Part shown: positions 1,785-7,110 of the stretch, in pieces
How the letters are laid out: every line of letters begins with the position of its first letter
Position numbering within the stretch: the stretch's first letter is position 1
DNA from: Rhodothermaceae bacterium
Lineage (GTDB): Bacteria > Bacteroidota > Rhodothermia > Balneolales > Cyclonatronaceae
NCBI GenBank assembly: GCA_020201275.1
Contig: JAIVHB010000145.1
Coordinates: forward strand, 1-32,676
Direction: 5' to 3'
DNA length: 32,676 nucleotides
Position numbers and translations under genes: made by a program
Notes under the pieces: model-generated
Databases searched by the model: none
Told to the model about the DNA's origin: nothing
The model's input: the letters and a program-made list of their open reading frames with translations, nothing else

Positions 1785-2498
1785 ATGGATTCAATAGCTA
1801 TTTGGTTCATTCTTTCGACTTTCATAGTAATGGTAAGCATCATTGCGATCGATCTGGAAACGGATTCACTCAAACTGATTGGCCAGAAGGATGAGGATTT
1901 GCCGGAGTGGACGAAACTTACCCACAGCCAGTGCGAAAATTGCACCCTGAAAAAGGAAGACCAACCGTACTGCCCCGTTGCAGCTAACATCGTGGATGTT
2001 GCCGACTTCTTTAAAAACCGGTATTCATACGACGACGTGCAGGTGACCATTGTAACGGAGTCGCGTACATATACTAAAAAGACCTCCCTTCAGAACGGAC
2101 TCAGTTCCCTTATGGGCCTCTATATGGTTACCAGCGGATGTCCTGTCATGGACAAACTAAGGCCACTTGTTCATACCCATCTGCCTTTTGCCAGCCTTGA
2201 AGAGAGCATGTTCAGGATTGTTTCCATGTACCTGGTAGCCCAATATTACCGGTTCCGAAAGGGAGAAAACCCGGATTGGAGCTTAAACGGGCTGAGCGAC
2301 CTGTTCGAAGACATTGGTAAAGTGAACAGGGCCTTCGCCGAACGACTGCACGCTGTTGTGAGCAAAGATGCCAACCTGAATGCGCTCGTGATCCTGAACT
2401 GCGTTGCCGATATGGGGAAAATCGCCTTCGAAAGTGAAGACATGGACGATCTCGAGTACCTCTTCAGCGCCCACATGAGCCCGAATTTTACGGTATAA
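1785..2498 (+). CDS. Conserved-looking protein with a Cys-rich N-terminal motif, function unknown
   Basis: This 237-residue protein is not confidently recognised. Near residues 49-65 it has C-x2-C-TLKKEDQPYC-PVA, which gives three closely spaced cysteines plus a possible fourth ligand (the His just before them) and suggests metal binding or a redox site. A lone Cys follows in TSGCPVMDKLRP, and the remainder is predicted to be largely helical. Residues 3-22 are hydrophobic and could be a membrane anchor. The segment VSIIAIDLETDSLKLIG could equally be beta strands of a soluble domain, so topology is uncertain. The start ATG is preceded by an AGGAAG ribosome-binding-like site, which supports it. 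The gene stands alone on the plus strand, and its 3' end overlaps the convergent rluA-like gene by 11 bases. Confidence 0.75.
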   Translation: MDSIAIWFILSTFIVMVSIIAIDLETDSLKLIGQKDEDLPEWTKLTHSQCENCTLKKEDQPYCPVAANIVDVADFFKNRYSYDDVQVTIVTESRTYTKKTSLQNGLSSLMGLYMVTSGCPVMDKLRPLVHTHLPFASLEESMFRIVSMYLVAQYYRFRKGENPDWSLNGLSDLFEDIGKVNRAFAERLHAVVSKDANLNALVILNCVADMGKIAFESEDMDDLEYLFSAHMSPNFTV

Positions 2499-3240
2499 CG
2501 CCAGTGTTACGCCTGTTTTTCCTGTAGAAATTGATCAGGTTCTGGATGTCGCCCGGTGCAGGTGCACGGAACATAACCTTATCTCCGGTTGTCGGATGGT
2601 CGAACGAAAGTTCAAGTGCATGCAGGGCCTGCCGGTCGATTCGCGGCTCATCGGCTTCCCTTGAATGGTAGTGACGGTCGCCCACCATGGGATGGCCAAT
2701 GGTTTCGAACTGAACCCTGATCTGATTCTTCAATCCCGTGTCCAGATTTATGTGAACCAGCGTGGTATCGGGAAACCGCTCAATCACCTTGTAGTGGAGC
2801 CTTGCAAGTGCTCCTCCCTCCTTTTCGCCCCGCACAACCACATTCCGGAAGCCTTTGTCGACCTTTTTAAGATAGTGTTCAAGCGTGCCCGAATCGTTTT
2901 TCACATTGCCCCGTACCAGTGCCAGGTAGGTGCGGACCGGAGTGTGGGCGAGAAACTGTTTGACCAGGTTTTTATGGGCCTTGCTGTTTTTGGCAAATAC
3001 CACAAGCCCTGAGGTATATCTGTCGATCCGGTGTACCGTAATTGCCTGTTCCCTGGTTTTGGCGAGTTCCTGTTTCAGATGTTCAAGCAGGTTCAGCGAC
3101 TGCATTTTCGGTATGGGCACCGTAAGCATACCCGCCGGCTTGTTCATTACAATAAGGTCGTGATCTTGATAGATAACCTGCACTCTGCGCAGCAGTGCCC
3201 CCTTGAAATAACGCTTGTTGGGCTCTTTTTTTTCCGGCAT
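2488..3240 (-). CDS. RluA-family RNA pseudouridine synthase
   Basis: The enzyme isomerises specific uridines in rRNA or tRNA to pseudouridine. At 250 residues it is a compact RluA-type catalytic domain without an N-terminal S4 RNA-binding domain. The early motif DLIVMNKPAGMLTVP is typical of the family. The catalytic loop is HRIDRYTSGLVVFAKN, in which the Asp of HRID is the expected nucleophile. The later motif TGLKNQIRVQ corresponds to the family's TGRxHQIRVH, with Asn in place of the usual His. The C-terminal HALELSFDHPTTGD segment is also canonical. The substrate position cannot be told from sequence. The gene ends tail-to-tail inside the unknown plus-strand gene, and no terminator is visible between them. 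Confidence 0.93.
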   Translation of the reverse strand: MPEKKEPNKRYFKGALLRRVQVIYQDHDLIVMNKPAGMLTVPIPKMQSLNLLEHLKQELAKTREQAITVHRIDRYTSGLVVFAKNSKAHKNLVKQFLAHTPVRTYLALVRGNVKNDSGTLEHYLKKVDKGFRNVVVRGEKEGGALARLHYKVIERFPDTTLVHINLDTGLKNQIRVQFETIGHPMVGDRHYHSREADEPRIDRQALHALELSFDHPTTGDKVMFRAPAPGDIQNLINFYRKNRRNTGVIP

Positions 3241-3308: not shown

Positions 3309-3665
3309 TCAGATCGACATGTCGACTTCATGCACATTTTTAAGGATGGCCTGGGCTTCCTTATCCTTGTTCTGCATCACCCGGTGTTCAAGATTGGTAA
3401 TCAGGTTCGCGGTGGATTCATCGAAAGCAAGCTGTTTGGCTTCCTTGACATTTCCGGTACGTATCAGGGCGTAGATTTCATCTGCCCTGATAACGCTGAA
3501 AAGACCGTCCTTGTTGAACGCGTGGCTTCTCAGATCCTCATATTGTTTGAAAACACGGGGAAAATCCTCGGTATTTTCGGCTTTTGTAATCACTTCAACA
3601 TCATCCGCGCCTTCTGCACTGAGCGGCACGCGGCAAATGAAATAAAATTTATCGCTGTATAACAT
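3309..3665 (-). CDS. Small protein of unknown function
   Basis: This is a 118-residue, acidic, probably cytoplasmic protein with no signal peptide or membrane segment. The first third (MLYSDKFYFICRVPL...) looks like a mixed alpha/beta fold. The rest is mainly helical and charged, with segments such as ADEIYALIRTGNVKEAKQLAF. No family was recognised. It lies on the same strand between the MATE-SixA gene and the rluA-like gene, with gaps of 48 and 68 bases, so it may be co-transcribed. Codon use resembles its neighbours, which supports a real gene. Confidence 0.65.
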   Translation of the reverse strand: MLYSDKFYFICRVPLSAEGADDVEVITKAENTEDFPRVFKQYEDLRSHAFNKDGLFSVIRADEIYALIRTGNVKEAKQLAFDESTANLITNLEHRVMQNKDKEAQAILKNVHEVDMSI

Positions 3666-3713: not shown

Positions 3714-5336
3714 TTATGATACAGACCCCTGCTCGCCACGAATTTTTTTTACCACCTTCGGGATAAGAAACCATTTCAGTACCCCCGATCCGGGATAAAT
3801 TTCGCTGATTGCCGGTGCGGTGAGTTCCAGGCAGGCCAGCGCGGCCGTGGGCATACGAAGCGGCGCCGAAACGTGCCCGTTGCACATCACGCCCAGAAAT
3901 TCCTCAATTACAGGATTATGACCGATCAGCATAACTGTCTGTGAACCTGAATAGGCGGAGATGATCTTCCTGTAGGTTTCAGCAGAACCCCCGTACAGAT
4001 TTTCATCGAAAATCAGATTTCCTTTGAATCCGGCCCCTTCGGCAAACAGCTCTGCCGTCTCCCTGGCTCTCCGGGCGGGCGAACTGATGATTTTATCGGG
4101 TATCATATCCGCCTCCCTTACCAACTCGCCCATCATGGGTGCATCCTTTAGCCGATAATATACCGGCAGGAAGATTAAAAATGACGCCACCAGCATAGAG
4201 TCGCGCATCGGTTTTGTGGCCGTAGCCCCAATATAGACCCCATCCCAGATAAAACAGAAACTGTTGATGAGTGGTGCCATGGCCGTCCATACAAAGTAGA
4301 CTAACGCCAGGGCGATTACATCCTCCTTATCGGTGAAAATGTACAGAATCTGCTCCGGGAAAATCGCATACACCACCGAAACAATCACTCCCAGGCCCAG
4401 GCCCCACCAGAGGTTGTACCGGATGGCCAGCCGCAGGTTTTTCCGGTCTCCGGCCCCTGTATACCTGCCAACGAGTGCCTCGGCTGCATAGGCGAACCCG
4501 TCTACACCGTAGGCCAGAATGTGCCACAACTGCAGCAGTATAGCATTTACAGCCAGAATCTGATCGCCGGCTTCGGCCGATTTTGCGGTAAAAAAGGAGA
4601 AGGCGAAGATGAGGCAGAGGGTGCGGATGAATATATCGCGGTTCACCATGAAGAAACGCTTCAGTTCGGCAACCTGGCTGATTGCACGCATACTGAACGA
4701 ACGTGCCACATGCCCGTATTTCCTGAAAAAAAGCAGCAGTCCCATGGCCAGGCCGCTGTACTGGGCACAGACGGTACCGAGGGCAACACCGTCTACCGAC
4801 ATACCCTGACCGTATACGAAATAAAAGGTGCAGCCGATGTTAACAAGGTTCACAAAAACGGTGAGGATCATGGGGTACCGGGCATTCTGCATGCCCAGAA
4901 ACCAGCCCTGTATGGCATAGAGCGATAGTGTGGCCGGGGCCGCCCAGATGCGCACCATGAAATAGACCCGGGCATACTCCTCCACCTCGGCCGAGCTGTC
5001 GATTATCCTGAAACAGAGATCGATTATGGGTACCTGTAACAGCAACAGCAGCATGCTGCCGCCCAGTGCCACGAGCATGGCCCTGCCCAGTACAGAGGCT
5101 TCCTCGCTGCGGTTTTCGCTGCCGAATGCCTGGGCCGTGAGCCCGGTTGTACCCATCCTGAGAAATCCGAAGCCCCAGTAGATAATGTTGAAAATCATGC
5201 CCCCCACCGCGATCGCGCCGAGGTAATACACATGGTCGAGGCGACCGACGATTGCGGTATCAACACTGCTCAGCAGGGGCACCGACAGGTTGCTGATGAT
5301 GTTGGGTATGGCAAGCCTCAGGATCTTCTTATTCAA
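3714..5336 (-). CDS. MATE (DinF-type) transporter joined in frame to the C-terminal part of a SixA-like phosphohistidine phosphatase
   Basis: Residues 1-394 are a MATE-family efflux transporter. The N-terminus (IPNIISNLSVPLLSSVDTAI), GFLRMGTTGLTAQAFG, the LAVNAILLQLWHILAYGVDG helix and many membrane segments resemble the DinF subgroup. The transporter part stops in a late helix at FLPVYY, about 50 residues short of the usual 440-450. From RLKDAPMM (residues 395-402) the protein matches SixA: IISSPARRARETAELF, then IGHNPVIEEF with the second catalytic-type His. The N-terminal SixA RHG/RHA segment, which holds the phosphate-accepting His, is absent. The phosphatase half should therefore be inactive and the transporter half may not fold. 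The start overlaps the upstream peptidase stop (ATGA), so they are probably translated together. This looks like a deletion or assembly join near 4154 rather than a functional fusion. Confidence 0.85.
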   Translation of the reverse strand: MNKKILRLAIPNIISNLSVPLLSSVDTAIVGRLDHVYYLGAIAVGGMIFNIIYWGFGFLRMGTTGLTAQAFGSENRSEEASVLGRAMLVALGGSMLLLLLQVPIIDLCFRIIDSSAEVEEYARVYFMVRIWAAPATLSLYAIQGWFLGMQNARYPMILTVFVNLVNIGCTFYFVYGQGMSVDGVALGTVCAQYSGLAMGLLLFFRKYGHVARSFSMRAISQVAELKRFFMVNRDIFIRTLCLIFAFSFFTAKSAEAGDQILAVNAILLQLWHILAYGVDGFAYAAEALVGRYTGAGDRKNLRLAIRYNLWWGLGLGVIVSVVYAIFPEQILYIFTDKEDVIALALVYFVWTAMAPLINSFCFIWDGVYIGATATKPMRDSMLVASFLIFLPVYYRLKDAPMMGELVREADMIPDKIISSPARRARETAELFAEGAGFKGNLIFDENLYGGSAETYRKIISAYSGSQTVMLIGHNPVIEEFLGVMCNGHVSAPLRMPTAALACLELTAPAISEIYPGSGVLKWFLIPKVVKKIRGEQGSVS

Positions 5337-6190
5337 GCATCCGGCCCCTTATACGATCCAAGAAAAGTCTGCATGGTTTTGAGAACGCGGTCTATGTCGC
5401 CGATAAAAACACGCTCATTCTTCTGATGGTAGGGGAAAATGGCAGGTTCAACGGCCACAGAGGGGATGCCGCCGTTCAGCGAGCCCAGCTCGCGGCCATA
5501 GGTCAGATAGTCGTTGGTATTATTCGCAGGGAGCATGTCGGGGTCGATTTTCATTAGCATATCCCTCAGCCTCCCGGTACGGTCTCTTTCGCCCTGGCCG
5601 GGCTGTTTCTCCGTAAATTCCCAGTGCCCGGAATACAGCGATACGCCGGGCGCTCCCCTGAACAGCGGAGTGGTATCGAGGGTGATTACCGCTTCGGGCA
5701 GCATATTTTTATCGATCAGGAACCGCGACACCCGTTCGGCACCCAGGCCGTGATGGAGATCTTTGCCGCCTTTCTTCATCAGGTGGGGATGTTCACGCAG
5801 CCCCATGCCCTCCTCCATTTCTGTTAGCAGGATGTACAGAGAGCAGGTTCTCACCCGGGTCATCCATTCGCCCAGGGCCAGGCAGAGGCCAACGCCTGCC
5901 GCATCATCCATCTGGCCGGTTATCTGGTCCCCACCGGTGCTTACCGGAAGCTGCTTCGGCGGATTTTCCCCGAAATGATTTATTTTATCGATGTGGGATG
6001 ATATGGCCACAGAATGACCGCTTTCTCCGGGTATTCTCACGATCAGGCTGTTTCCCGGCGGGTGGTGAAGTTCGATTCCGTCCCATTTGCCGAATATTTC
6101 GAGCAGATGGGGATGGTAAATCTCCTCAAATGAACTGAAGCCGGGAATCCTGGCTATATCCTGAATATATTGAACTGTTTTCTGTAGCAT
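5333..6190 (-). CDS. M20/M28/M42-like zinc metallopeptidase
   Basis: The 285-residue protein resembles co-catalytic zinc aminopeptidases and deacylases. Expected metal and catalytic residues occur in order: SSHIDK (His and Asp), GQMDDAAGVG (bridging Asp), LLTEMEEGMG (the Glu-Glu pair), ITLDTTP (Asp) and AIFPYHQKNER (late His). There is no signal peptide, so it is probably cytoplasmic. The exact family and substrate are uncertain, because the protein is short for M20 and lacks an obvious lid domain. It is the first gene of the minus-strand pair with the MATE-SixA gene, which it overlaps by four bases. Confidence 0.82.
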   Translation of the reverse strand: MLQKTVQYIQDIARIPGFSSFEEIYHPHLLEIFGKWDGIELHHPPGNSLIVRIPGESGHSVAISSHIDKINHFGENPPKQLPVSTGGDQITGQMDDAAGVGLCLALGEWMTRVRTCSLYILLTEMEEGMGLREHPHLMKKGGKDLHHGLGAERVSRFLIDKNMLPEAVITLDTTPLFRGAPGVSLYSGHWEFTEKQPGQGERDRTGRLRDMLMKIDPDMLPANNTNDYLTYGRELGSLNGGIPSVAVEPAIFPYHQKNERVFIGDIDRVLKTMQTFLGSYKGPDA

Positions 6191-6553: not shown

Positions 6554-6561
6554 TATGTTTG
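6554..6561 (+). promoter_or_regulatory. Candidate -7 promoter element (TATGTTTG)
   Basis: TATGTTTG fits the Bacteroidota -7 consensus TAnnTTTG exactly. It is about 80 bases ahead of the pseudopilin-like gene. The -33 TTTG element is not clearly present, so the call rests on one box and its position. Confidence 0.4.
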
Positions 6562-6642
6562 CTTATCTTACCAGTTGACAATATATTCGCTAATCATTTT
6601 CAGGTAATCCACCAACAACAGTTTCACAAGTTTCCATACGCG

Positions 6643-7110
6643 ATGAACATTGACAAAAGGAATAACATCATAAGCGTTATCCTGACTATTGCCATATTAG
6701 TATTGGGCTACATTCTGTACCGCTCGATTACTGCACCATGGGATGAAGTTGAACAACGCAAAGAAGTGACAGAACAGGTACGGCAACGGATGAGCAATGT
6801 CCGGACCGCCCTTGTTGAGTTTCAGCGGCAGAATAACCGTTTTCCTCCCTCGCTCGACTCCCTTATCGTGTACATCAAGACCGACGAAAGGATGATGCAG
6901 CTCGGGGATTCGCTTTTCAAGGAACGCCGCCCGCTCAGGTATCACCCCGACTCCCTGATCTATTCACCCCGGCCGCCGCACAACCGGTTCCAGTTTGAAC
7001 TTAATGATACGCTCAGGCCAAATATCTACCTGCTGTCTGATCCTGATTCAAGAGACCGGATAGGCAGTCTGGAACGTACAACGCTTCTGAACGCATCAAG
7101 CTGGGAATAG
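6643..7110 (+). CDS. Single-membrane-span protein with pseudopilin-like layout
   Basis: Starting at MNIDKRNN, this 155-residue protein has one membrane helix at about residues 8-28. A charged helix follows (VTEQVRQRMSNVRTALVEFQRQNNRFPPSLDSL). This helix and its NNRFPPSLDSL turn resemble the region of GspG-like major pseudopilins where a short helix leads into the DNGRYPTTEQGL loop. A canonical prepilin-peptidase site (G followed by F/M-TLIE) is absent, so it may be only a topological analogue. The remainder is short and Pro/Arg-rich. An upstream in-frame ATG at 6559 would add 28 residues, but it overlaps the -7 box and is unlikely. The stop is nine bases before the DUF3822-like gene, suggesting an operon. 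Confidence 0.7.
   Translation: MNIDKRNNIISVILTIAILVLGYILYRSITAPWDEVEQRKEVTEQVRQRMSNVRTALVEFQRQNNRFPPSLDSLIVYIKTDERMMQLGDSLFKERRPLRYHPDSLIYSPRPPHNRFQFELNDTLRPNIYLLSDPDSRDRIGSLERTTLLNASSWE

Follow-up and report, generated by a model that had tools for sequence, protein, structure and literature searches.

Within the stretch of DNA analysed here (the window, 32,676 nucleotides from a Rhodothermaceae bacterium), a local deletion has in all likelihood joined the neighbouring genes dinF and sixA, leaving a pseudogene-like scar rather than a working hybrid. In the open reading frame at 3714-5336, the first 394 residues of a DinF-type MATE transporter continue in frame into SixA, which starts here at its residue 31. 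The deletion, very roughly 0.2-0.4 kb as judged from relatives, would have removed the end of dinF (TM12, the tail and the stop, some 35-60 residues), a short spacer and the first 30 sixA codons, with the frame kept by chance. Any protein made from the joined frame would be a transporter remnant of 11 helices whose SixA remnant, catalytically dead, would lie in the periplasm. Judged from sequence, sixA function appears to be lost, and dinF function very probably is as well.

Organization of the hybrid reading frame

The locus contains the following features:

2488..3240, minus strand: RNA pseudouridylate synthase (PF00849, E 1.1e-31), next gene downstream, with a counterpart in the congener G001
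3309..3665, minus strand: downstream gene, 118 aa, no Pfam match; same neighbour in G001
3714-5336, minus strand: hybrid open reading frame of 540 aa that starts with TTG and is free of internal stops
3714..4151, minus strand: sixA remainder, from congener residue 31 to the stop (identity to the intact G001 SixA; alignment of 29 SixA rows, each with at least 33% identity over at least 135 residues)
4152..4154, minus strand: joint codon CGG (Arg395), assignable to neither gene (codon listing)
4155..5336, minus strand: dinF (MATE) remainder, codons 1-394, TM helices 1-11, without TM12 and tail (NCBIfam profiles, relatives' DinF, AlphaFold model)
5333..6190, minus strand: upstream gene, 285 aa, no Pfam match, 4-nt overlap with the dinF start; same neighbour in G001
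6559-7110, plus strand: divergent gene, 183 aa, separated from dinF in this genus by the 285-aa gene

The joint falls after Tyr394, at about window positions 4152-4154 (codons GTA TAT TAT CGG CTA AAG GAT). From CTA AAG GAT onward the translation follows the intact SixA of G001 from residue 31, ungapped over 145 residues and at 87.6% identity. At the position of Arg395, the DinF of near relatives has other, mostly hydrophobic residues, and SixA usually has Gly. The translated frame and its profile matches bear out the in-frame MATE-SixA hybrid of 540 residues that the first-pass annotation had described, and the codon listing together with the alignment to G001 SixA shows that its coordinate for the joint, 4154, was correct.

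Over the transporter half, TIGR00797 (MATE subfamily) matches residues 11-397 with 274.9 bits against a cut-off of 147.4, and PF01554 scores 139.7 bits against a cut-off of 24.9. The nearest named type, the DinF equivalog NF007690, scores 305 bits where its cut-off is 409, a shortfall that is perhaps not due to truncation, as the score is known for the hybrid alone. The SixA profile TIGR00249 matches residues 398-504, equivalent to its positions 30-139 of 154, with 21.5 bits against a cut-off of 74.5, and PF00300 reaches 21.2 bits, just below its cut-off of 21.7. Strand 1, the RHA motif and the ERPL stretch are missing from the sixA remainder, and SSPARRARETA and GHNP are kept. The pocket Arg (of SSxAxRA) and the second His (of GHNP) are both retained; they correspond to R58 and H108 of the congener and are invariant in the SixA alignment A1. 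Absent, as had been proposed, is the RHG segment with the phosphate-accepting His, which reads RHA in these relatives; R8 and H9 are nearly invariant (at least 90%) in A1 (27 rows). Two published studies report that E. coli SixA(H8A) is inactive both in vivo and in vitro and that the catalytic His is required (PMC6282199, PMC7948535).

Among the flanking genes, the 285-aa gene contains a DDAAGVG stretch that we take to be reminiscent of metallopeptidases. This gene has either been gained in this genus or been lost in another genome, G048, where a 158-aa gene similar to the divergent 183-aa gene (L022:8583-9059) directly adjoins dinF.

dinF and sixA in related genomes

The hybrid was searched in 59 genomes, namely the source genome and 58 others, counting matches at E 1e-140 or better as close dinF. 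A close dinF orthologue is found in 36 of the 58 other genomes, and in 28 of these 36 (a table counted by eye) a separate sixA lies on the same strand and contig within about 1.3 kb; in the remaining eight, sixA lies elsewhere or was not reported. The DinF proteins of family members are 64-65% identical to the transporter half and extend some 35-60 residues further. At the loci examined, each dinF whose end is complete carries a conserved TM12 region and then terminates in a stop of its own, about 35-60 residues past the position of the joint in the window; the dinF genes of L063 and L092, which are cut by a contig end, stand outside this count. Where sixA is a same-strand neighbour, it starts in most loci between 4 nt before and about 130 nt after the dinF stop, and in L014, L020/L024, L049 and L097 it starts 0.35-0.93 kb after it. 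Across the order dinF seems to be dispensable. Most family f3 genomes in the search table have remote MATE matches or none, and no close dinF.

Two genomes, G048 and G003, have dinF and sixA in one frame but with a stop between them. The former had appeared as a second fusion, with a joint frame of 610 residues, and was rejected: a TAA stop separates its full-length dinF from its full-length sixA. When related genomes were searched for the domain pair with a 60-residue junction probe, a full-length match was found in just one of the 128 genomes in the order, the source genome; a further 74 match one half or each half separately, one of them with a three-residue overhang. A conserved MATE-SixA fusion family was likewise rejected, the probe having found no second fusion among the 128 genomes. 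The locus has the layout of a deletion pseudogene: at the same place, relatives have the two genes separate and intact, the congener having an intact sixA only.

In a tree of DinF, the proteins of two bins labelled Roseobacteraceae (L050, Thalassobius; L051, Thalassovita) group with a row from a KSB1 bin, which reflects either transfer or misbinned contigs.

A probable second deletion in the congener

The only other genome of the genus in the comparison, G001, is a draft that is 89% complete. Its gene order is the same, running from the 183-aa gene through the 285-aa gene, sixA and the 118-aa gene to the pseudouridine synthase. Its sixA is complete with RHA and begins with MEHLLVLRHAKSDW. Its dinF is nearly gone: the remnant (L021:9498-9610, minus strand) starts as LNKKILRLA and passes without a frame change into MTSFMVAGGIARMW, a stretch similar to the TM12 region of relatives, before it ends at a stop. 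Both flanks of this joint are compatible with the overlap GGCTGGCCAT, and the same 10-mer is present near both ends of dinF in an intact relative (L011); on these grounds a deletion between 10-nt direct repeats would be the simple reading of the G001 loss. A second close DinF was searched for in this 89% complete genome and was not found. The locus thus carries two different deletions in two genomes of one genus, both of them known from draft assemblies, so each calls for caution. That dinF has been disrupted in two different ways within the genus suggests that the gene is dispensable there.

Predicted structure and membrane topology

MATE transporters normally have 12 transmembrane helices, with the N-terminus inside. 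The AlphaFold model of the hybrid has 11 helices over residues 1-398, and the region that forms TM12 in relatives is missing. The loops expected inside contain 16 Lys and Arg residues in total, against 4 in the loops expected outside, so that with 11 helices the tail after TM11 should lie outside the cytoplasm, on the periplasmic side, together with the SixA remnant. NPr and the other known targets of SixA are cytoplasmic, and the SixA tail, even if it folded, would lie across the membrane from them. Topology prediction had been suggested earlier as a check on the hybrid; the helix number of the AlphaFold model and the Lys and Arg count place the SixA part outside.

The SixA part of the hybrid model is poorly scored, with block means of 31-56, and only one other alignment row covered that part. 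The lost segment includes strand 1, which in the congener model comprises residues 3-8 (pLDDT 94.5); the best fold matches of that model are the SixA structures 2RFL, 4HBZ and 1UJB. A mixed alignment (A3), in which the SixA rows were misplaced, was left unused.

Sequence constraint and age of the joint

Compared with G001, the SixA remnant has a dN/dS of 0.092 (bootstrap 0.047-0.148); the values of four neighbouring genes, 0.032, 0.061, 0.115 and 0.056, bracket this figure. For the transporter half, rows of at least 53% identity and at least 380 aligned residues were used for a conserved-column test and a tree, and identical rows and rows with stops were dropped. Of the 97 near-invariant columns, 2 are altered in the DinF half, which is unremarkable among the 47 rows. 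In the tree of these rows the window's end branch measures 0.49 against a median of 0.18 and is not flagged as long, although no other row comes from its genus. No decay was seen in either half by dN/dS against G001, by conserved columns or by the DinF tree. The SixA remnant appears to be under the ordinary purifying constraint also seen in its neighbours; on the time scale of the genus, the joint is therefore probably young. The pairwise test fits a recent deletion, a joint absent from the living population or a hybrid under constraint alike; of these the last is the least likely, given its rarity, its topology and the loss of the catalytic strand.

Origin of the hybrid

The deletion is favoured by the joint itself, by the separate genes in relatives and by the failure to find the lost segment elsewhere in the assembly; on the other side, both halves are free of stops and of excess change, which fits a recent deletion and is not in itself loss of function. 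Frame retention is expected for one deletion in three, no more than chance gives. We infer that the deletion lies in the cell's DNA and not just in the assembled consensus. The flanks of the contig are syntenic with G001, so it is no chimera of distant places. The source assembly is a draft of 3.42 Mb in 253 contigs, however, and as a sub-case of the deletion, the joint may exist only in the consensus, through an assembly error or a minor-strain variant, in a living population with intact dinF and sixA. The fragmented assembly, the rule of an intact pair in the order and the normal constraint of both halves all lean towards that reading. Against it, a probe for the lost region matched in three of three control genomes and had no match in the 3.42 Mb assembly, and a search of the source genome with the congener's SixA found the missing segment on no other contig, though an unassembled variant would give the same result; the congener's deletion in the same gene, if real, shows moreover that deletions occur here. 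We consider such an artefact possible but rather unlikely. Searches of the source genome with a relative's full DinF gave no second close DinF, and neither a second His_Phos_1 protein in the assembly nor a parental allele of this species was found. Of two observations that had been named beforehand as speaking against a genuine hybrid, the one that concerns relatives is borne out: in these, dinF and sixA do stand next to each other as separate genes of full length, and sixA is intact at the locus in the congener.

It is improbable that sixA alone was lost and that dinF remains functional without TM12; its 394 remaining residues are well conserved, but all relatives with a complete end keep the TM12 region, and the C-terminus would end on the opposite side of the membrane. 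More doubtful still is a new fusion that functions as a DinF variant of 11 helices, its SixA-derived domain serving for binding and not for catalysis. Such a fusion would account for the kept, stop-free frame, for the pairwise purifying signal in the SixA part and for the retention of the pocket Arg (R58 of the congener) and the second His (H108). It is found, however, in one of 128 genomes. Strand 1 and the catalytic His are both missing from its SixA part, which would lie in the periplasm, and the purifying signal, averaged over the two sequences compared, may have arisen entirely before a recent deletion; the low model confidence of that part (block means 31-56) points the same way, a weak test with one other row covering it. 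That the hybrid is expressed and kept, with its non-catalytic tail outside as a binding or regulatory module of a truncated DinF, is equally far-fetched. A real and retained hybrid would give a MATE transporter an unusual tail derived from a histidine phosphatase, and nothing here favours that. The first-pass annotation had left open a degenerate fusion, a deletion product and a repurposed phosphohistidine-binding domain. The first two are supported. The third finds no support: the pair is fused in 1 of 128 genomes, and its SixA part would face away from the cytoplasm.

Comparison with known systems

No MATE-SixA fusion is named among the papers listed in searches of the mostly open-access literature on SixA, DinF/MATE and histidine phosphatase fusions. 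Relative to DinF-type MATE transporters (TIGR00797, NF007690), hybrid residues 2-397 cover nearly the whole profile and the closest rows are 64-65% identical, whereas the hybrid lacks TM12 and the tail and falls under the DinF equivalog cut-off. Relative to SixA (TIGR00249, PDB 1UJB and 2RFL), the remainder is 87.6% identical to the congener's intact protein, whose model matches 2RFL and 1UJB, but the hybrid is without the first 30 residues, including the catalytic RHA segment, and scores below the TIGR00249 and PF00300 cut-offs. In deletion-fused pseudogenes, adjacent genes on the same strand are joined by loss of the 3' end of one and the 5' end of the other. The hybrid has this same layout, although no intact allele of the same species was found to prove the event. 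It is an ordinary scar and not a new family, and it cautions that two recognisable domains in one open frame are no evidence of a working fusion.
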